Shown: in pieces, positions 5,128 through 15,789 of the stretch
Layout: every line of letters starts with the position of its first letter
How positions within the stretch are numbered: the stretch's first letter is position 1
DNA from: Alcanivorax sp. DP30
GTDB lineage: Bacteria; Pseudomonadota; Gammaproteobacteria; Pseudomonadales; Alcanivoracaceae
Length of the DNA stretch: 64,000 bases
Reading direction: 5' to 3'
Assembly: GCF_009882945.1 (NCBI RefSeq)
Contig: NZ_WTUY01000002.1
Coordinates: 699,325-763,324 of the forward strand
Program-made: the position numbers and the translations under genes
The notes under the pieces: model-generated
Seen by the model: only the letters and a program-made list of their open reading frames with translations
The model's database searches: none
Told to the model about the DNA's origin: nothing

Positions 5128-7743
5128 TCAGACCGCTAAGGTTTCCAGCAGACCGCGCAGTTCAGGAATGCAGGAGCCACAGTTGGTGCCTGCCTTACAG
5201 CACAGGCCGATGGCCTCTACGGTATCCGCGCCCTCTTCCACCGACGCCTCGATGGTCTTCTGACGCACTTGGTGGCAACTGCAGATCACCGGCCCAAGAT
5301 CCGGACCGGCATCGGCGGGTTGCCCTGCCAGAATGGACAAGGGTTGCACATCTTCCACTCCGGCAAAGCAGCTTGCCAGCCATTCCACATCACACAGCGG
5401 CAGGCTTTCTCCGATGGCCAGCCAGGCGATGAGCTTGCCTCCAGCATCCAGTGCCGCGCGACGGTAATGGCCGGTGGAGGGATCATTCAGCGCCAGCCAT
5501 TGCGCCGCCTCCGGCATCCATTCATGAAGTTGTTGTTCAGTTAGGTCCGCATCACCGGCCAGCCGATAGCGTTGTACCTGGCCCGCCTGCAAAAATGCAT
5601 CGACGGGAACTCGGGCCCAGTACTCCACAGCGGGCGGGGTAGCCGCTGTGAACAACCAGCCATGCCAGCGGGGTTGCCAGTCGCTGACATTAACCGGCGT
5701 ATGTTTGAACGCAGGCTGGCCGGAATGCGGATCCAGACGTGCCGGCACCAGGGCATCCACCCTGGCCCGGCGAGAAAACTGATCAGTCCAGTGCATGGGC
5801 ATGAAGGCGGTTCCGGGGCGCTGCCCGGCATCACTTTTCACCCGCACCAGGGCATCACCGACCTTGCTGGTGAGGCGGACAAAACCACCATCACTGAGTC
5901 GATAACGCTCGATATCGTTGGGATGCAGCGCCGTAAACGGTTCACTCAAGTGGGCAAACAATCGCCCCGCGCGGCCTGTACGCGTCATGGTGTGCCACTG
6001 ATCACGAATACGACCACTGTTAAGAATAATCGGGAAGGCCTCCCCGATCTTGTGCACGACGGGGTTCTCACAGACGATGAACCGGCCACGGCCATCCGGT
6101 GTCGCGAATTGGCCATCACCGAAGCAGCGCGAGCCCCCGTTGAGAGGCCACTGTTGCGGTTGCCAATTTTCATATTGGTCGGCGCTCAATTCCGCGGCAG
6201 CAGTCAGATCAAGCCGCTTGCCAAACCGTCCTGCCAGGGCGGTGAGCGCCGAGTACTCGGCAAAAATTTCGTGTTCGTTCTGGTACGCAAACGCCGTGGC
6301 AAATCCCATACGTCGAGCCACTTCGGTAATAATCCACCAATCGGCTTTCGCTTCACCCGGCGGGGCGACAAAAGGCCGCTGGCGGGACACACAGCGCTCA
6401 GAATTTGTCACCATGCCGGACTTTTCTCCCCAGCCCAGCGCAGGTAGTCGAATGTCGGCACAAGCCAGCGTATCGCCGCTGGCGACACAGTCGGAGACCA
6501 CGACGGTGTCACAGGCCATCAAGGCATGGCGAACCCGATCTGCCTCTGGCAGTGAGTCCACCGGGTTGGTCGCCATGATCCACACGGCTTTCACCTGGCC
6601 ACTTTCTACTGCATTAAACAGATCGACGGCAGTCAGACCATTCTTGGTGGCAAGAGTCTCTGTCTGCCAGAAATCGGCAACCGCAGCATGATGCTCGGCG
6701 TTATCAATATCCAGGTGTACGGCTAGCTGGTTGGCCAGTCCTCCGACTTCCCTGCCCCCCATTGCATTGGGCTGACCGGTAATGGAAAACGGGCTGGCAC
6801 CGGGCTTGCCCACCCGGCCAGTGGCCAGGTGCGCATTGATGATGGCATTACCTTGATCGGATCCATTGCGAGCCTGATTAACGCCCTGGGAGAAGACCGT
6901 TACGGTACGTTCGCAGGCAGCAAACCAGTGATAAAACGTGGTGAGATCGACGTGGGAAACGCCCAGCTGGTTTGCCAGGGCATCCCAGTCATTGCCCTGT
7001 TCACGGGCTGTCGCCAGAGCGGCATCAAAACCAGAGGTATGCGCATTGATATAGCCTGTATCCAGCGCATTATGGTCGTCGAGCCAGGTCAGCAAGCCAT
7101 TGAACAGCGGCACGTCCTGACCGGGCCGTATCGCGATATGCAGATCGGCCAAATCGCAGGTGGCTGTTCGGCGGGGATCGATGACCACCACCTTCATTTC
7201 CGGGCGAGCCTGCTTGGCAGCGGCAATACGCTGGTAGACGATCGGGTGTGCCCAGGCCGTATTGGAACCGGTGAGGATCACAAGATCGGCAATTTCCAGA
7301 TCTTCATAGCAACCGGGCACCACGTCTTCGCCGAAGGCACGCTTGTGCGCCACCACCGCGCTGCTCATGCACAAACGGGAATTGGTATCGATGTTGGCGC
7401 TACCGATGTAGCCCTTCATCAACTTGTTGGCAACGTAATAATCTTCGGTGAGCAGTTGGCCTGATACGTAAAATGCCACCGAATCCGGGCCGTGCTCTTC
7501 GACAATACGGCGAAAGCGCTCGGCCACTTCGTCCAGTGCCTGATCCCAGGTCACTCGCTCGCCATCAACGTCCGGATACAGAAGGCGATCCTGATCGCCT
7601 AGCGTTTCCAGTACCGAGGAGCCCTTCACACACAGACGGCCGCCATTGGCAGGATGGATTTCATCCCCCTGAAGGGTCTTGCCATCGGTGCGAATGCCGC
7701 AACCCACGCCACAGTAGGGACAAGTGGTACAGATACTACTCAT
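5128..7743 (-). CDS. nasA: Assimilatory nitrate reductase, catalytic subunit
   Basis: Molybdenum (bis-MGD) nitrate reductase that reduces nitrate to nitrite in the cytoplasm for nitrogen assimilation. The 871-residue protein starts with the [4Fe-4S] motif CxxCxxxC at residues 8-15, and the fourth Cys is in RLCVKG. The molybdopterin oxidoreductase and dinucleotide-binding domains follow. About residues 815-868 form a BFD-like [2Fe-2S] domain with CSCHQ and CxxC elements, as in Klebsiella NasA-type enzymes. Its start overlaps the stop of the upstream FAD oxidoreductase by 4 nt, so the two are probably translationally coupled. It is last in the nirB-nirD-oxidoreductase-nasA operon and should follow the sigma-54 promoter before nirB. 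Confidence 0.96.
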   Translation of the reverse strand: MSSICTTCPYCGVGCGIRTDGKTLQGDEIHPANGGRLCVKGSSVLETLGDQDRLLYPDVDGERVTWDQALDEVAERFRRIVEEHGPDSVAFYVSGQLLTEDYYVANKLMKGYIGSANIDTNSRLCMSSAVVAHKRAFGEDVVPGCYEDLEIADLVILTGSNTAWAHPIVYQRIAAAKQARPEMKVVVIDPRRTATCDLADLHIAIRPGQDVPLFNGLLTWLDDHNALDTGYINAHTSGFDAALATAREQGNDWDALANQLGVSHVDLTTFYHWFAACERTVTVFSQGVNQARNGSDQGNAIINAHLATGRVGKPGASPFSITGQPNAMGGREVGGLANQLAVHLDIDNAEHHAAVADFWQTETLATKNGLTAVDLFNAVESGQVKAVWIMATNPVDSLPEADRVRHALMACDTVVVSDCVASGDTLACADIRLPALGWGEKSGMVTNSERCVSRQRPFVAPPGEAKADWWIITEVARRMGFATAFAYQNEHEIFAEYSALTALAGRFGKRLDLTAAAELSADQYENWQPQQWPLNGGSRCFGDGQFATPDGRGRFIVCENPVVHKIGEAFPIILNSGRIRDQWHTMTRTGRAGRLFAHLSEPFTALHPNDIERYRLSDGGFVRLTSKVGDALVRVKSDAGQRPGTAFMPMHWTDQFSRRARVDALVPARLDPHSGQPAFKHTPVNVSDWQPRWHGWLFTAATPPAVEYWARVPVDAFLQAGQVQRYRLAGDADLTEQQLHEWMPEAAQWLALNDPSTGHYRRAALDAGGKLIAWLAIGESLPLCDVEWLASCFAGVEDVQPLSILAGQPADAGPDLGPVICSCHQVRQKTIEASVEEGADTVEAIGLCCKAGTNCGSCIPELRGLLETLAV

Positions 7744-8966
7744 GCGGCAATTTCCTCCTCGCCGTCACCGCCTGCTGCCTTGCAGAACGCCTCGCCCATT
7801 AGCAGAACCTGGCGCAACGATGCAATATTGGTGCGCTCCCGCCACAGGTTTTCGTAATACGCAGCGTCAGTCACATCGCCATACAGCACCATACCGACAA
7901 TCCTGTCATCGACGATCTGCAGACGGCGATAGCTGCCCGGCAAAGACAGTTGCAACATCTGCCCCTGTCCATCGAAATCGCCCAGCGAGACGAGATCGAT
8001 CCCGGAGATTTTCAGGCGAGTGGCGTTATCGGCAAACAGGTAGCGCCGATGACCCAATTCCGCCAGATGACTGGCGCAGACCGCAGCCTGCTCATACAGT
8101 GGCGCCACAAGGCCAAAGGTACGGTTACGGTGCTCCACGCATTCGCCAATGGCGTAAATGGCAGGGTCAAACGTTTGCAAGGTATCGTCCACGCGCACAC
8201 CTTGGTTAACGGTTAAGCCTGCTTGATCGGCCAGCTCAGTCCGCGGCAAGATTCCCACGGCCTGAACCACATAATCCGCGGGCAGAACCTGGCCATCCGC
8301 CAGATTCACGGCAGTGACAGCGCCCTGCCCGTTATCCTGGATGGATTCAGTACGAGCCTGCATGACAAACTTCACGCCCCGTTTTTCCAGGTCATGTTGC
8401 AGACGATGGCCCGCCTCTTCATCCAGCTGTTGGTTGAGCAGGTGGCCGCGGCTGTGAACCAGGGTCACGTCATGCCCCTGTTTGACCAGCGCATCGGCAG
8501 CCTCCAACCCCAAAAAGCCGCCGCCAACGACCACCACACGGGCGGCCGAGAGCGACAACAACTTGCGCACGTCATAGAGATCACGAAAGCTCATGACGCC
8601 ATTTAATTCGTTGCCCTCAATGGGCAATTGGCGGGGCGCAGCCCCGGTAGCCAGCACCAGGCGGTCGTAGTCCAGCTTGTGGCCGGCGGCGGTGACCACC
8701 TGACGACGGTGGCGGCGGATAGCCACCACCGGTGAACCGGTTATGAGTCGAATATTCCGGTCCCGGTACCACTGGTGCGGGTGGGTGGTGATAGCGACTT
8801 CGTCGGTACCGCCACCCAGTAAAGGCGAGAGCATGACCCGGTTGTAACCGGCAAAAGGTTCGTCGCCCACTACCGTGATCTGATACAGATCCGGCGCCAG
8901 ACGTGTCACCTCTTCAAGCAGGCGAATCGCCGCCATGCCGTTACCGATTACCACCAGTTTTTTCAT
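7740..8966 (-). CDS. NAD(P)H/FAD oxidoreductase, nitrate reductase electron-transfer partner
   Basis: A 408-residue pyridine nucleotide-disulfide oxidoreductase of the rubredoxin-reductase / NirB N-terminal type. An FAD-binding GxGxAA motif lies at the N-terminus (VIGNGMAAI), and a second Rossmann motif VVVGGGFLGLEAA near residue 145 binds NAD(P)H. The sequence resembles the first 400 residues of NirB but lacks its Fe-S and siroheme parts. Its position, overlapping nasA by 4 nt and 19 nt after nirD, argues that it passes electrons from NAD(P)H to NasA, like Klebsiella NasC. That role is inferred from context and family. Confidence 0.88.
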   Translation of the reverse strand: MKKLVVIGNGMAAIRLLEEVTRLAPDLYQITVVGDEPFAGYNRVMLSPLLGGGTDEVAITTHPHQWYRDRNIRLITGSPVVAIRRHRRQVVTAAGHKLDYDRLVLATGAAPRQLPIEGNELNGVMSFRDLYDVRKLLSLSAARVVVVGGGFLGLEAADALVKQGHDVTLVHSRGHLLNQQLDEEAGHRLQHDLEKRGVKFVMQARTESIQDNGQGAVTAVNLADGQVLPADYVVQAVGILPRTELADQAGLTVNQGVRVDDTLQTFDPAIYAIGECVEHRNRTFGLVAPLYEQAAVCASHLAELGHRRYLFADNATRLKISGIDLVSLGDFDGQGQMLQLSLPGSYRRLQIVDDRIVGMVLYGDVTDAAYYENLWRERTNIASLRQVLLMGEAFCKAAGGDGEEEIAA

Positions 8967-8985: not shown

Positions 8986-9336
8986 TCAGTGTGTGGCTGA
9001 GACAGCCACTTCGATCACGTCACCCTCCACCCGAACCGGGTAGACATTCAGGCTGACGGTTTCGTCTTCGAGACACTGACCGGTTTCCAGATCAAAGTGC
9101 TGTTTGTAAATCGGTGAGGCGACCACTTTCTTGCCCGCCAGAGAACCCAGCAGACCCCGACTCAGGACATTGGCGTGGCTGAATGGGTCCATATTATCCA
9201 GCGCAAAGAATTTACCATCGCGGGTACAGAACAGGGCTGCCTGGCCCTGGGGCAGGCGCACGCCAACCCCAGTGCCCGGCAACACATCGCTGACGTTACA
9301 AACGGCTTTCCATTCCACAGCAACAGAACTATTCAT
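8986..9336 (-). CDS. nirD: Nitrite reductase [NAD(P)H] small subunit
   Basis: A 116-residue NirD of normal length with the Rieske-like fold of the nitrite reductase small subunit, including the conserved DNMDPFSHANVLSRG region near residues 45-60 and the PIYKQHFDLETG strand. As in other NirD proteins, the Rieske Cys/His cluster ligands are missing, so it is structural or accessory rather than redox-active. It begins 2 nt after the nirB stop codon and works with NirB to reduce nitrite to ammonium in the cytoplasm. Confidence 0.95.
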   Translation of the reverse strand: MNSSVAVEWKAVCNVSDVLPGTGVGVRLPQGQAALFCTRDGKFFALDNMDPFSHANVLSRGLLGSLAGKKVVASPIYKQHFDLETGQCLEDETVSLNVYPVRVEGDVIEVAVSATH

Positions 9337-9338
9337 GA

Positions 9339-11867
9339 TCAGGCCTCCTCCACCAATTCAATCCGTTCGTGATCATAGGCCGGACGACGCTGGCCACGTT
9401 CACGGACATACTTGAGGTTGTCATCCGCGGCATCATCGTTGACGAAATGCTTGAAGCGTTTTAGCGCTTCCTCGTCTTCAATGGTGGTCTTCCACTCACA
9501 CTGGTAGGTGGCGATGACATGCTGCATCTGCGCTTCCAGCTCGTCGCCAATACCCAGAGAGTCGTTAAGAATGACGTCTTTCAGGTAATCAAGGCCGCCT
9601 TCCAGATTCTCCAGCCAGACGCTGGTACGCTGCAGACGATCTGCCGTCTTGATGTAGAACATCAGGAAGCGGTCGATGGTTTTGATCAGTTCTTCGTCGG
9701 AAAGATCGGACGCAAACAAATCGGCGTGACGAGGGCGCATGCCACCGTTACCACACACATAAAGGTTCCAGCCCTTTTCGGTGGCGATTACCCCCACATC
9801 CTTGCTCTGGGCTTCGGCACACTCACGGGTGCAACCACTGAACGCCATCTTGAGTTTGTGCGGGCTACGCAGCCCCTTGTAGCGCTCTTCCACCTGAATG
9901 GCTGTACCCACGGAGTCTTTCACCCCGTAGCGGCACCAGGTGGAACCTACACAGGATTTCACGGTACGCAGGGACTTGCCGTAGGCATGACCGGTTTCAA
10001 ACCCGGCATCCACAAGAATTTTCCAGATCTCGGGGAGCTGGTCGACGCGGGCACCGAACAGATCCACACGCTGACCACCGGTGATCTTTGTGTAGAGGTC
10101 GTACTGCTTGGCCACTTCACCCAGAACGATCAGCTTGTCCGGGGTAATTTCGCCACCCGCCACACGGGGCACGATGGAGTAGGTACCATCGCGCTGCATG
10201 TTACCGAGGAAGTAATCATTGGTATCCTGCAAGCCGGCGTGGGGCTTCTCGAGAATATAATCGTTCCAGCAGGATGCGAGGACAGAGCCCACGGTGGGCT
10301 TGCAGATATCACAGCCGTCACCACTACCGTGTTTTTCCAGCATCTGGTCAAACGTCTTGATCTCGCCCACACGCACCAGGTGATAGATCTCTTCACGGGA
10401 ATAGGCGAAGTGTTCACACAGGTGGTTGTTGACTTCCACACCGCGTTTTTCCAGTTCACTGTCCAGCACCTGTTTCACCAGCGCCGTACAACCGCCACAG
10501 GTAGCAGAGGCCTTGGTGCATGACTTGAGATCACCAACCGTCATGGCGCCATCGTCGATGGCCGCGCACAGATCGCCTTTGGACACGTTATTACAGGAAC
10601 AAATCTGCGCGGTGTCGGGCAGTGCATCGGCCCCCAGCAGCGGCGCGCCATCGGAAACCGGCGCAACCAGTGCCGCCGGCTCTCCAGGCAGATCCATCTC
10701 ATTCAAGCAAAGCTGCAGCAGATTGCCGTAATCGGCAGCATCGCCCACCAGCACAGCGCCGAGCAATTTCTTGCCGCACTCACTGATGACCGCCTTCTTG
10801 TAGACGCCGGCGGTCTGATCCATGAACACGGTGCTGCGACAGCCGGGGGTGTTGCCATGGGCGTCACCGATAGACGCCACATCCACCCCCATCAATTTCA
10901 GTTTGGTGCTCATATCCGCACCCTGGAAGGCATTCTCACTCTTGCCCATCAGGTGCTCGGCGGCCACTTCTGCCATCTGGTAACCGGGCGCCACCAGACC
11001 GAAGATGCGGCCATTCCACAGCGCCACTTCACCGATCGCATAAATGTCTTCATCGGACGTGACGCAGTGATCGTTGACCACAATGCCGCCCCGCTCGCCC
11101 AGTTCAAGCTCACAGGCGCGAGCCAGCGCGTCCTGCGGACGGATACCGGCGGAGAAGACGATGACATCGGTTTCCAGATGCTTGTCATCGCCGAAGTTCA
11201 TGCGATGTTTGCAGCTCTCGCCGTCGATAATTTCCTGGGTACCGGTGCTGGTATGCACGGTCACACCCAGTTCCTGAATCTTGTCTTTCAGCAGGCCGCC
11301 ACCAAAGTCATCGACCTGTACGGCCATCAGACGCGGAGCAAATTCAACGACGTGGGTCTCAAGCCCCAGGTCATGCAGCGCCTTGGCGGCTTCCAGACCC
11401 AGCAAGCCCCCACCCACCACGGTGCCCACCTTGCCGTCCTTGCTGGCGGCAATCATGGCATCCAGATCGTCGATGGTCCGGTAGACGAAACAGTTCTCAC
11501 GATCATTACCCGGGATCGGCGGAACGAACGGATAAGAACCGGTAGCAAATACCAGCTTGTCGTAACTGAGCGTCTCACCCGTATTGGTGGTTACGGTTTT
11601 CGCTGCCCGGTCGATACTGTCGGCACGGGTCTTGAGTTTCAGCGAGATGTCATGCTCTTCAAAGAAACCCAGCGGCACCAGGGACAGATCATCCGCGGTC
11701 TTGCCGCTGAAGTAGCTGGTCAGCCCTACCCGGTCATAGGCCGGCAGCGGCTCTTCACAAAGAACGGTAATGTCGTATTGCTCACGGCCGCCCTGGGCAA
11801 CCAGCGATTCCAGATATCGCTGACCTACCATCCCGTGACCGATCAAAAGAAGTTGTTGCTTTGCCAT
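9339..11867 (-). CDS. nirB: Nitrite reductase [NAD(P)H] large subunit
   Basis: An 842-residue assimilatory nitrite reductase (nitrite to ammonium, six electrons from NAD(P)H). In order it has an FAD/NAD-binding oxidoreductase module, a BFD-like [2Fe-2S] domain at about 420-475 (CSCNN and CxxC in ATCGGC), a ferredoxin-like half, and the siroheme/[4Fe-4S] domain with SGCTREC and YVCGNGG ligands near residues 675-715. The start is ATG 11867 with GAGGGTGAG about 8 nt upstream; GTG 11876 lies inside that motif. It is the first gene of the nitrate assimilation operon. A sigma-54 promoter match ends about 30 nt upstream of the start, which implies nitrogen (Ntr) control. Confidence 0.96.
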   Translation of the reverse strand: MAKQQLLLIGHGMVGQRYLESLVAQGGREQYDITVLCEEPLPAYDRVGLTSYFSGKTADDLSLVPLGFFEEHDISLKLKTRADSIDRAAKTVTTNTGETLSYDKLVFATGSYPFVPPIPGNDRENCFVYRTIDDLDAMIAASKDGKVGTVVGGGLLGLEAAKALHDLGLETHVVEFAPRLMAVQVDDFGGGLLKDKIQELGVTVHTSTGTQEIIDGESCKHRMNFGDDKHLETDVIVFSAGIRPQDALARACELELGERGGIVVNDHCVTSDEDIYAIGEVALWNGRIFGLVAPGYQMAEVAAEHLMGKSENAFQGADMSTKLKLMGVDVASIGDAHGNTPGCRSTVFMDQTAGVYKKAVISECGKKLLGAVLVGDAADYGNLLQLCLNEMDLPGEPAALVAPVSDGAPLLGADALPDTAQICSCNNVSKGDLCAAIDDGAMTVGDLKSCTKASATCGGCTALVKQVLDSELEKRGVEVNNHLCEHFAYSREEIYHLVRVGEIKTFDQMLEKHGSGDGCDICKPTVGSVLASCWNDYILEKPHAGLQDTNDYFLGNMQRDGTYSIVPRVAGGEITPDKLIVLGEVAKQYDLYTKITGGQRVDLFGARVDQLPEIWKILVDAGFETGHAYGKSLRTVKSCVGSTWCRYGVKDSVGTAIQVEERYKGLRSPHKLKMAFSGCTRECAEAQSKDVGVIATEKGWNLYVCGNGGMRPRHADLFASDLSDEELIKTIDRFLMFYIKTADRLQRTSVWLENLEGGLDYLKDVILNDSLGIGDELEAQMQHVIATYQCEWKTTIEDEEALKRFKHFVNDDAADDNLKYVRERGQRRPAYDHERIELVEEA

Positions 11868-11907
11868 AAGGCTCACCCTCGCGGTGCGTAACTGACAGCG
11901 CTACCTG

Positions 11908-11923
11908 AGCAAGGCCTATGCCA
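11908..11923 (-). promoter_or_regulatory. Sigma-54 (-24/-12) promoter for the nirBD-nasA operon
   Basis: The minus strand reads TGGCATAGGCCTTGCT. This matches the RpoN consensus TGGCACR-N4-TTGCW with one mismatch and exact GG/GC spacing. Transcription would begin near 11897, leaving a leader of about 30 nt to the nirB ATG. Confidence 0.8.
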
Positions 11924-12007
11924 AATCAATAACCCCCTGTTTTTAATATATTTATTTATTTATTCTTATAATTCTTCACTTAGCCATGCATTGATTTAAT
12001 GCGCAGA

Positions 12008-12036
12008 TGCACGACGAAGATGCACTTTTTCGTGCA
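12008..12036. promoter_or_regulatory. Candidate NtrC enhancer sites (nirB side)
   Basis: Two overlapping dyads sit here: TGCAC-N7-ATGCA at 12008-12024 and TGCAC-N6-GTGCA at 12021-12036. The known NtrC site form is TGCAC-N7-GTGCA, so one half-site base or one spacer base deviates in each. They lie about 119 and 131 bp upstream of the predicted nirB start point, the usual distance for NtrC enhancers. Confidence 0.55.
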
Positions 12037-12356
12037 CCTTTATGAGTCAATTGCGCAGATCCGCGAAGCACAGCACTGAAAACCAGCACCCGCTCCGTTC
12101 CATAAACTCATAACACAATATGGATCCGCCTCTTACCAGGCCGCTCCCTTTCCGATCTTTGATCTGGACAACTGTCTGGAAAGGTATTTCCCGATCAGAA
12201 TGCCATCATCGCTCTGCCTGCATACCGCGAGTGCGTATGCGGTCCACGCCTTGGTAGATGCTGCATCGCATCCAAAACACGACGACAAACACACCGGCAC
12301 ATTTTGGGCGCCCAACCGGAGCCCTCATATAAGGCAGAAATCAAAAACAAGATATT

Positions 12357-12373
12357 TGCACGTATTTTGGGCA
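12357..12373. promoter_or_regulatory. Candidate NtrC site (transporter side)
   Basis: TGCAC-GTATTTT-GGGCA is a 17-bp imperfect dyad differing from TGCAC-N7-GTGCA by one base. It is centred about 142 bp upstream of the predicted start point of the nitrate transporter transcript. Dyad quality is modest. Confidence 0.4.
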
Positions 12374-12480
12374 AAATTTTCGCCCCATCATGCAGCCTCA
12401 AGCATCACGATCCCGCACTAAAATCACAGAACAGCAACGCCAACCCAAGATTTTCCAATAAATATCAACAAGTTAAATAT

Positions 12481-12496
12481 TGGCACGAGCATTGCT
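12481..12496 (+). promoter_or_regulatory. Sigma-54 (-24/-12) promoter for the nitrate transporter
   Basis: TGGCACGAGCATTGCT matches the RpoN consensus TGGCACR-N4-TTGCW at every defined position. Transcription is expected near 12507, 32 nt before the transporter ATG. It faces away from the nirB promoter; the 557 bp between them hold the NtrC-like dyads and an AT-rich stretch at 11940-12000. Confidence 0.88.
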
Positions 12497-12538
12497 TTGC
12501 CATAGCCCATCGACCAACCGCCCGTGGACGGAGTGATC

Positions 12539-14008
12539 ATGAGCGCCGACAAACTGAATCTTCTTAATTTTTCTGCACCGCGAATCCGGCTGCTTCATCT
12601 GAGCTGGATCGCATTCTTCATCACCTTTGTGGTGTGGTTTTCACACGCACCACTGATGGGACACCTGCGCGAGGCCTTTGACCTCACCACGGACCAGGTC
12701 AAGGCGCTTCTGATCCTCAATGTGGCACTGACCATTCCAGCACGCGTGATCATCGGCTCCCTGGTAGACCGCTTTGGTCCGCGCAAGGTATTCGGCCTCC
12801 TGCTGATCATTTCAGCATTTCCATGTTGGGCATTTGCCATGTCCACCAGCTTCGAACAGCTGGCCGTGACCCGATTGCTAATGGGCTTTGTCGGTGCCGG
12901 ATTTGTGGTGGGTATTCGCCTGATCGGTGAGTGGTTCCCTGCACGCGAAGTGGGACTGGCCGAAGGGGTATATGGTGGCTGGGGTAACTTTGGTTCTGCC
13001 GCTGCGGCAATCACACTACCCACTGTAGCCATGCTGTTTGGTGGTGAAGACGGCTGGCGATGGGCCATTGCCAGCACCGGCCTGATCGCGATGATCTACG
13101 GCGCGATTTTCCTGTGGCGCGCACGCAACACCCCCCAAGGCTCCTCCTACTTCAAGCCAAAGCGCAGTGCCGCCCTGGAAGTCAGCACCAAGCGCGACCT
13201 GTATTTCTACCTGGCCATGAGCGTGCCACTGTATGCGGCCCTGCTGGTCATCGTATGGCGCCTGGGTCCAACCAATCTTGCCCTGTTCGGCACCACGGCC
13301 CAATACATACTGGTCTCCCTGATCCTTGCACTGGGTATCGTGCAGATCGGTCAGGCCTGGCGGGTAAACCGCGAGCATCTTAAAGAAGGTGTGGATGAAC
13401 AGGATCGTTACAGCTTCAAGCAGGTCGCCATCCTGGATCTGTCCTATCTGGTGACATTCGGCTCCGAGCTTGCGGTCGTCTCCATGTTGCCGCTGTTCTT
13501 TGCTGACACATTCAAGCTAGAACCGGTAATGGCAGGCTTGCTGGCGTCCGGCTATGCCTTCATGAACCTGGCGGCCCGCCCTAGTGGTGGCTGGTTGTCA
13601 GATAAATTCGGCCGCAAGAAATCGTTGATCATTCTCCTCGCCGGACTGATGGTCGGCTATGGCCTGATGAGCCAGATCAGCAGCACCTGGCCGCTGGCAC
13701 TGGCAGTGATCGCCACCATGTGTTGTTCCTTCTTCGTGCAGGCAGGCGAAGGCGCGGTATTTGCCACTGTTCCTCTGATCAAGCGCCGCCTGACCGGCCA
13801 GATTGCGGGCATGGTGGGAGCCTACGGAAACACCGGTGCGGTCATTTTCCTTACCGTGCTGACCTTTGTAGAGCCAAGCACCTTCTTCCTGGTTATTGCA
13901 GCCAGCGCCGCCGTTGCCTTCGTGGCCGTGCAATTCCTGGATGAACCCAAGGGACACATTGCCGAAATTGACGAGACCGGACAGGTCCAGCTGATCAACG
14001 TGGGCTAA
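12539..14008 (+). CDS. MFS nitrate/nitrite transporter (NarK/NasA type)
   Basis: A 489-residue major-facilitator protein of the nitrate/nitrite porter family with about 12 transmembrane helices. The family signatures are present: the FSHAPLMG region in TM1, [15 protein letters not shown] after TM2, [16 protein letters not shown] in TM4 and the [13 protein letters not shown] loop. It imports nitrate for assimilation. The start is ATG 12539 with GGAG 5 nt upstream; GTG 12524 is upstream of that motif. A perfect sigma-54 promoter precedes it, and the PP2C/kinase gene follows after about 56 bp, probably in the same transcript. Confidence 0.93.
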
Positions 14009-14064
14009 GATGATAATGGCCGGCCCTGGGCCGGTCTGTTCAGGATTGAGCACAGGGAATGACC

Positions 14065-15789
14065 ATGGACGTTTCGATTGCAACGCAAACGCCCGATGCC
14101 GTGAATGATTCCCCTATCAAAAGGGAACCGGAGCTGGCACCCCGGGTACGCATTGGCCAATACAGTGACAGTGGCCCCAAGCTCCACAATCAGGATGCGC
14201 TGGCCATGCGGATTCCCGAAGGGAGCCTGCTGCGCACCAAGGGCATCGTGTCAGCACTGGCTGATGGTCTATCCACAGCGGGCGCTGCACGAGAAGCAGC
14301 CGAATCCTGCGTGCTGGGCTTTATCAGTGATTACTATGCGACACCGGCATTATGGAGTGTTCCTCGCTCTGCCCAGAAAGTGCTTGAAGCATTGAATCGC
14401 TGGTTGTGTCGGCAAACCCTTGCCGGTGAAAGTCACCTCTGCACCCTGTCCCTGCTGATCCTGCGATCACAAACCGCTCACCTGTTTCAGGTGGGCGATT
14501 CCCGCATCTGGCGCCTGCGTAACGACAAGCTGGAATGTCTGACCCGCGATCACAGCCGCATGCTCGGTGATAACCGCCAGGTGCTGACCCGCGTCATGGG
14601 AGGAGACACCCGCCTGGATGTGGACTACTGCAGCAGCGATCTTCAGGTCGGTGATATCTTCCTGCTGACCAGTGATGGCGTGCACGGCTTTCTCAGTCGC
14701 TCGCGGATGCAGGGGATCCTGAGGGGTTGCTCCAAACCGGAGATCTGCTCCCAGGCATTGGTGGAAGCCGCGATCGCCAACGGCAGCGATGACAATGTCA
14801 GCTGCCAGGTTCTGACCATCGACGCCCTGCCCGATGCCGGTGCCGATGAAGTGTTACGGCAACGGGGCAATCTGCCCCTGCCGCCTCCACTCACTCCCGG
14901 TGTCCGTGTAGATGGTTTCACAGTCATTCGTGAATTGTATGCCAGCGTGCGCAGTCATCTTTATCTGGTGGAAGATGCGGACGGAGAGCGCTCGGTGCTG
15001 AAAACCCCCTCTGTCAATCTGGAGGATGACCGCTTTTCCCTTGAACGGTTTGTCATGGAGGGCTGGGTTGGCAACCGGCTGCGCAACCCACATCTGCTCC
15101 GCTACCTGCCTATTCAGGATAACCCCAGTTGCCTGTACCAGCGCCTGGAATTCATTGATGGCGTTACCCTCAAGCAATGGTTGAACGACCACCCCGACGC
15201 CCCGGTGGAAGAAAAACTCTACCTGGCGGATCAACTGCTCAACGGTATCCGGGCCCTGCACCGAGCCGATGTAATCCATGGTGATTTGAAACCCGACAAC
15301 ATCATGGTGGACAGCAACGGCTTGGTCCGAATCGTGGACTTTGGCAGCTGCCACTGCCGGGGCATGGAGCAGATAAACGCGGGTATTCCCCTTGGCACCC
15401 GTGATTACAGTGCACCTGAGCTGGTGGAAGGCACAACCCCGTCAGAGCAGAGCGATTTATTTTCAGTGGGTGTCATCATCCACGAGATGCTCACCAGCGC
15501 CCTGCCCTGGCACGGCCGCTACGAGAAAGCCACGCATCAACCCTTGCCAGCGCTGCAGGGACAAAATGCCTTTATCCCCCTGTGGATCAACAACGTGCTG
15601 CAAATCGCCTTGCATCGCCAGCCCAATCAGCGCTTCGCGGACGCCGCCGAATTCCGTGACGCCCTGCGCCGGCCAGTGCGCAGCACCAAAGCGGCGAAGG
15701 ATAGCAGCGTCAATGAATTACGGCTTTGGAAAGGAGCATGCGTAGTACTGGTGATGTTGCTGTTAATCAGTGTCAGCCTTAATCAATGA
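14065..15789 (+). CDS. Fused PP2C phosphatase / Ser-Thr protein kinase, membrane-tethered
   Basis: A 574-residue bifunctional signalling protein. Residues about 30-255 form a PP2C-type phosphatase (HNQDA, ADG, LTSDGVHGF and DDN metal-site motifs). Residues about 280-545 form a eukaryotic-like kinase with a Lys in VLKTPS, the catalytic loop HGDLKPDN (HGD in place of HRD), a DFG Mg-binding motif and SAPEL. One hydrophobic helix at about 553-572 ends the chain, so it is tail-anchored with the enzymes in the cytoplasm. ATG 14065 is preferred to ATG 14059 because AGGGA lies 6 nt upstream. A homologous kinase occupies the nitrate locus of Pseudomonas aeruginosa (recalled). Control of nitrate uptake or reduction by phosphorylation is inference. 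Confidence 0.88.
   Translation: MDVSIATQTPDAVNDSPIKREPELAPRVRIGQYSDSGPKLHNQDALAMRIPEGSLLRTKGIVSALADGLSTAGAAREAAESCVLGFISDYYATPALWSVPRSAQKVLEALNRWLCRQTLAGESHLCTLSLLILRSQTAHLFQVGDSRIWRLRNDKLECLTRDHSRMLGDNRQVLTRVMGGDTRLDVDYCSSDLQVGDIFLLTSDGVHGFLSRSRMQGILRGCSKPEICSQALVEAAIANGSDDNVSCQVLTIDALPDAGADEVLRQRGNLPLPPPLTPGVRVDGFTVIRELYASVRSHLYLVEDADGERSVLKTPSVNLEDDRFSLERFVMEGWVGNRLRNPHLLRYLPIQDNPSCLYQRLEFIDGVTLKQWLNDHPDAPVEEKLYLADQLLNGIRALHRADVIHGDLKPDNIMVDSNGLVRIVDFGSCHCRGMEQINAGIPLGTRDYSAPELVEGTTPSEQSDLFSVGVIIHEMLTSALPWHGRYEKATHQPLPALQGQNAFIPLWINNVLQIALHRQPNQRFADAAEFRDALRRPVRSTKAAKDSSVNELRLWKGACVVLVMLLLISVSLNQ

Follow-up and report, generated by a model that had tools for sequence, protein, structure and literature searches.

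Predicted divergent sigma-54 promoters with NtrC-type dyads between nirB and a nitrate transporter gene in Alcanivorax

The Escherichia coli glnAp2 enhancer consists of two TGCAC-N7-GTGCA dyads located upstream of a -24/-12 promoter. In Pseudomonas aeruginosa, genes of a NasA transporter and of a kinase adjoin the nitrite reductase operon. As outlined in a review (PMC12830290), the Pseudomonas nirBD leader NalA is a target of NasT, and the transcript originates from an NtrC-dependent sigma-54 promoter. In the account given for Pseudomonas stutzeri A1501, NtrC activates the nas genes including nasT, and the putative NtrC sites are composed of GC and GC elements with a spacing of 11 nt (PMC8443478). 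No title among the literature matches listed concerned the Alcanivorax nirB/narK promoter pair, the subscription literature lying largely outside the scope of the search; combining Alcanivorax, nitrate assimilation and NtrC in the literature searched returned one paper, which deals with ectoines.

The window analysed here is a stretch of 64,000 nucleotides from Alcanivorax sp. DP30 (genome of 3.62 Mb). It exhibits nirB and a narK-family transporter gene in divergent orientation, separated by a gap of 648 bp (Table 1). The longest ORFs open at GTG codons (11876 for nirB, 12524 for narK); ATG codons are conserved at 11867 for nirB and at 12539 for narK.

Table 1. Genes, predicted promoters and dyads of the nirB-narK region, in window coordinates
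Feature	Coordinates	Strand or place	Remarks
Molybdopterin nitrate reductase-like ORF	5128-7743	(-), behind the FAD reductase-like ORF	matched model below its cut-off
FAD reductase-like ORF	7740-8966	(-), behind nirD	matched model below its cut-off
nirD	8986-9336	(-), behind nirB	above TIGR02378 cut-off
nirB, NAD(P)H nitrite reductase large subunit	9339..11867	(-)	two cut-offs exceeded (1345, 1119 bits)
Putative sigma-54 (-24/-12) promoter of nirB, TGGCATAGGCCTTGCT	11923-11908	(-)	10/12; predicted +1 ~11897, leader ~30 nt
Conserved dyad TGCATTGATTTAATGCG, GC-N11-GC	11987-12003	centre ~-98 of nirB	TGC-N9-ATGCG; 21 bp from next dyad
NtrC-type dyad TGCACGACGAAGATGCA, GC-N11-GC	12008-12024	centre ~-119 of nirB	9/10 arm bases, N7
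Overlapping dyad TGCACTTTTTCGTGCA, GC-N10-GC	12021-12036	centre ~-131 of nirB	10/10 arm bases, N6
NtrC-type dyad TGCACGTATTTTGGGCA	12357-12373	centre ~-142 of narK	9/10 arm bases, N7
Putative sigma-54 promoter of narK, TGGCACGAGCATTGCT	12481-12496	(+)	12/12; predicted +1 ~12507, leader ~32 nt
NarK-family (NasA-like) MFS nitrate/nitrite transporter	12539..14008	(+)	TIGR00886 332 bits, cut-off 312
PP2C/kinase fusion	14059-15789	after narK	model matches below cut-offs

The initial annotation of this gap had placed a sigma-54 site before each gene, the one before the transporter being an exact consensus match. We scored such sites by their matches at 12 positions of the sigma-54 consensus TGGCACGNNNNTTGCW and, to obtain the chance level, dinucleotide-shuffled the 648-bp gap 3000 times. 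A full score of 12 was reached on the + strand in no shuffle, and on either strand in 0.03% of them. A score of 10 on the - strand was found in 10.5% of the shuffles, so that the nirB-side site alone is not significant; 12 on one strand together with at least 10 on the other was never obtained. Both sites exhibit the expected features, namely GG at -24, GC at -12, the TGGCAC/TTGC context and the fixed spacing. Transcription starts were predicted as 12 nt past the -12 base, and distances were computed by hand.

As shuffling leaves the nirB-side site without significance of its own, it is the conservation throughout the genus that settles its reality. Both sites score at least 10/12 at a constant distance from their genes in every genome of our genus sample (17 Alcanivorax genomes, DP30 counted), which bears out the two sites of the initial annotation. 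We compared 20 nirB-narK gaps in total, adding those of Alloalcanivorax, A. limicola and the MAG DS1.3.55 to the 17 of the genus. The nirB-side site scores at least 10/12 in all 20 of them; its position within the cut sequence is 59-61 throughout the 17 genus genomes, 70 in Alloalcanivorax, 276 in limicola and 189 in DS1.3.55. The narK side also holds a site of at least 10/12 in 20/20 gaps, those of limicola and DS1.3.55 being doubtful, more than 200 bp from the gene. Outside the family, 65 loci were collected (L025-L089), and we scanned the 15 whose divergent neighbour is nirB or a relative; two (L027, L030) were excluded with nirB farther off, and the other 48 were without nirB within the stretch examined. 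These outgroup loci exhibit a nirB-side site of at least 10/12 in 15/15 cases and a narK-side site of at least 9/12 in 14/15, the neighbour being merely a 34-38% NirB relative in four of them (L038, L040, L042, L044).

TGCAC-type dyads had been reported at 12008-12036 and 12357-12373, each at an enhancer-like distance from one promoter. They are present as described, at about -119 and -131 of nirB and -142 of narK. With the score defined over the ten arm positions of TGCAC-N-GTGCA, the window holds two N7 dyads of at least 9/10 for 0.037 in the shuffles, and one N6 dyad, again for 0.037. Counted by spacer (0 to 15) over 24 related and non-independent gap sequences, dyads of at least 9/10 number 17 for spacer 6 and 26 for spacer 7, and at most 4 for any other. 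We identified a further conserved dyad (11987-12003) absent from the initial annotation. Its block 11994-12003 exhibits a mean identity of 0.95 over 18 aligned sequences, and TTTAATGCG is found in all 17 Alcanivorax rows and is absent from Alloalcanivorax. The centre of this dyad is 21 bp, or two helical turns, from that of the dyad at 12008-12024. TGCACTTTTTCGTGCA has a spacer one base below the usual NtrC spacing and shares its left arm with TGCACGACGAAGATGCA; with its N10 spacing and this overlap, two dimers could not both bind there in the classical manner. On the narK side, TGCACGTATTTTGGGCA opens a degenerate second array (array B) extending to TTTTCGCCCCAT and ending at 12388, of which the third half-site is CGCCCC. 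The dyads of the two sides lie about 100-150 bp upstream, as expected of an NtrC-activated promoter.

Most probably (about 0.9), the gap carries a divergent pair of sigma-54 promoters that would be activated by phosphorylated NtrC under nitrogen shortage; the binding of NtrC, the start points, the looping and the physiology in the scheme that follows are predicted. RpoN polymerase would wait in its closed form at the -24/-12 elements, some 30 nt ahead of each of the two genes. When nitrogen is limiting, NtrB would phosphorylate NtrC, and phosphorylated NtrC would oligomerise on the TGCAC dyads, with array A (11987-12036) acting on nirB-nirD-nitrate reductase and array B (12357-12388) on narK. 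NtrC would then loop onto the RpoN polymerase and open it through ATP hydrolysis. Sufficient ammonium would turn off both sides together.

Comparing this gap across related genomes for conserved dyads had been proposed as a check, and it located the nirB-side array in 17/17 genomes of the genus and the narK-side dyad in 5/6 of those with a long gap. In alignments, the array TGCAC-N8-TGCAC-N7-TGCAC occupies one genus-wide place. It is weakest in hongdengensis, and one or two arm changes are seen in many short-gap genomes. In the window, S6407, nanhaiticus, G007 and G012, a distance of 123-124 bp separates the narK-side dyad from the sigma-54 site; the arms of the dyad (9-10/10) and the trailing TTTTCGCCCCA are kept, and its seven middle bases vary between lineages. 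No narK-side dyad was found in A. profundi, the sixth long-gap genome. Outside the family, dyads of at least 9/10 occur in only 4/15 outgroup loci.

Eleven genus genomes have a short gap of about 300 bp, seven with one narK and four with an extra paralog. Relative to the predicted starts, their main array is at about -119 of nirB and about -144 of the adjacent transporter gene. The enhancer distance of the transporter is therefore nearly constant, whether the array is its own (about -142) or shared. The initial annotation had also supposed that the dyads could serve both sides. One array likely serves both promoters in these relatives with gaps of about 300 bp, as judged from their single main array. 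In the DP30 genome each promoter has its own dyads, and sharing is less likely there, given the 648-bp gap and the narK dyad at about -142. We also considered that array A drives both promoters in this genome too, the dyad at 12357 being a relic. This agrees with the one main array of the 11 short-gap genomes (among which DG881 has an additional 9/10 dyad at position 204), with the degeneracy of array B and with its absence from profundi. However, the arms of the narK dyad and its distance from the promoter are kept in five genomes despite the drift of the middle bases, and in the window about 480-510 bp of unconserved DNA separate array A from the narK start. We hold a relic to be unlikely, and retain the reading of separate dyads for the two predicted NtrC-activated promoters.

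A second narK paralog is located between nirB and narK in four genomes, and a sigma-54 site precedes this second gene in 4/4. Loci L012, L014, L024 and L107 have such tandem paralogs, placed between nirB and the gene that follows. In the short-gap genomes the promoter is of the type seen at the upstream paralog, but the protein mostly resembles the downstream one. This suggests that a paralog was lost by recombination between narK copies.

The regulators that this scheme would need are encoded in the DP30 genome: RpoN (241 bits, cut-off 22.8), NtrC (746 bits for a cut-off of 559) and NtrB (378 for 240; NCBIfam). Control of nirB and the transporter by RpoN/NtrC, as first proposed, is supported by these genes, by the conserved promoters and by dyads at nitrogen loci. 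Dyads of the same type were identified upstream of the known targets glnA, glnK-amtB, ntrB and nasT. The perfect palindrome TGCAC-N7-GTGCA occurs five times in this genome, twice upstream of glnK-amtB, once upstream of ntrB, once inside ntrB and once upstream of nasT. Over the 17 genomes it is found 53 times, for 3 occurrences of the reversed control; 16/17 genomes possess it and one has none. The dyad upstream of glnA belongs to a group of three at 9/10, two of them 31 bp apart, with a sigma-54 site of 10. The arms of the nasT array are 13, 13 and 12 bp apart, the same plan as in the nirB array (13, 12). At glnK-amtB the dyads are present and the scan gave no sigma-54 site of at least 9; the nrtA promoter exhibits a sigma-54 site of 10 with dyads of merely 8/10. 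A triple-array pattern gave one exact match, which says little, as the pattern was derived from the nirB array itself; with two mismatches allowed, eight further places match, glnK-amtB and nasT included.

Could the dyads be occupied by an enhancer-binding protein other than NtrC, on promoters that remain sigma-54-dependent? TGCAC arms by themselves name no protein, and the genome encodes at least two further NtrC-class sigma-54 activators (L116 and L117, 385 and 322 bits). However, the dyads recur at the classical NtrC targets listed above, and all five perfect palindromes of the genome are at nitrogen loci, which makes another activator highly improbable.

Two details of these loci may be recorded. 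The palindrome inside ntrB lies at L144:3913-3929, and palindrome pairs at an equal spacing of 337 bp are found in G005 and G012. The longest nasT ORF begins upstream of its own sigma-54 site (L145:5564-5593); the true nasT start is probably the later MALKIMLVDDQ.

A putative nitrate-responsive layer is encoded elsewhere in the genome, where the genes of an ANTAR response regulator (NasT-like) and of a NasS-like protein adjoin nrtABC and a gene for a porin-like protein. At E-values up to 1e-40 the NasT-, NasS- and NrtA-like proteins and the porin were without an NCBIfam match, so that their names are tentative and derive from the ANTAR match, from the nitrate-transporter models matched by the neighbouring permease and ATPase, and from gene order. 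In the nrtA leader (L145:10641-10827), a hexaloop hairpin and an intrinsic terminator of the NasT/ANTAR type come after a sigma-54 site; the leader folds into an AAUGGC-loop hairpin and a strong terminator (z -4.4). Against Rfam it gave sub-threshold matches only, among them narK RNA and Pseudomonas sRNA P11. The 15-base terminator arm directly precedes the nrtA ortholog in 15/17 genus genomes, by a pattern that also matched places which context or fold marks as non-attenuators and that misses attenuators of other sequence; the remaining two genomes (assemblies 93 and 92% complete) hold merely 39% and 37% matches to NrtA. By a simple scan, the hexaloop-and-terminator leader was found at nrtA in 4/4 genus genomes scanned and in limicola (L210), and in 0/3 outgroup nrtA loci. 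In G010 (L195), one of the two genomes outside the 15, an attenuator leader directly precedes the porin-like gene; the search gave no nrtA ortholog there, and the arrangement looks as though nrtABC had been excised. In G009 (L181) the NrtA match is in two pieces in different frames; this nrtA may be frameshifted or misassembled.

At nirB, such a leader is present in 2/15 loci scanned, those of A. limicola and DS1.3.55 (L020 and L022), where the attenuator is placed after the sigma-54 promoter and ahead of nirB; the genus of the window differs in this. Limicola seems to have an attenuator at both nirB and nrtA. A loss of the nirB attenuator in Alcanivorax was considered and is weakened by 12/12 further loci with none at nirB (11 outgroup loci and Alloalcanivorax); as outgroup loci also have none, the pattern does not clearly point to such a loss. 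With a looser scan, weak terminator-like matches appeared at two loci, in the nirB leader of L062 and upstream of L044. That nitrate additionally controls nirB of the window by way of a NasT attenuator in the leader, as described for Pseudomonas nirBD (PMC12830290), would fit the NasT/NasS-like genes and the nirB leaders of the two relatives outside the genus, but we consider it very doubtful, since the predicted leaders of about 30 nt leave no room for an attenuator at nirB or narK, a simple scan of both gave no hexaloop hairpin or terminator, and Rfam gave no match in 9000-14500. By promoter position alone, the other 16 nirB leaders of the genus are likewise left with about 30 nt.

A tentative extension of NtrC/sigma-54 control, which we regard as possible though somewhat short of an even chance, is that NasT would attenuate nrtABC only, that the reductase operon and NarK would answer to nitrogen status alone, and that array A would be a compact two-way enhancer (arms every 12-13 bp) in the short-gap relatives. 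If so, nitrogen-starved Alcanivorax would produce the enzymes even when nitrate is absent.

Other candidate elements of the gap were set aside. One sigma-70-type site was found on the + strand for 1.4 in shuffles, and two terminator-like sites at 12280-12312 (-), upstream of the nirB promoter, for 0.9 in shuffles. A blastn search (E-value up to 1) for remnants of another narK gene in mid-gap returned no match for the window and only short ones for other genomes, and tblastn gave nothing convincing.

Alcanivorax are oil-degrading marine bacteria, of which the growth on hydrocarbons is often nitrogen-limited. The present analysis provides a well-supported regulatory annotation of nitrate use in this genus. 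The gaps, ranging from about 300 to 1000 bp, form a natural series for asking under which conditions a single enhancer acts on two promoters. The NasT-type leader varies in its place as well: it stands at nrtA in the genus, at nirB in DS1.3.55 and in Pseudomonas, and apparently at both in limicola. This variation offers a small instance of regulatory rearrangement that can be tested.

The initial interpretation is very probably right, and the locus is an ordinary, well-preserved example of known NtrC/sigma-54 control, useful mainly as annotation. Compared with E. coli glnAp2, the likeness is at glnA of the DP30 genome, with its dyads 31 bp apart, whereas at nirB distances of 21 and 12.5 bp separate the dyad centres, and two of these dyads have a common arm. 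The PP2C/kinase fusion after narK, with its model matches below cut-offs, is comparable to the kinase gene in the P. aeruginosa neighbourhood. The 11-nt spacing given for the putative P. stutzeri A1501 sites (PMC8443478) is found in three of the four window dyads (11987-12003, 12008-12024, 12357-12373), and the fourth (12021-12036) has 10 nt. In contrast to Pseudomonas nirBD as reviewed (PMC12830290), nirB of the window has no NalA-like attenuator, such a leader preceding nrtA instead; the likeness is a nitrite reductase operon placed at an NtrC-type sigma-54 promoter, here a predicted one. On its sequence features, nirB of the window would lack the second layer (the attenuator) of the Pseudomonas scheme and possess the first, NtrC/sigma-54.
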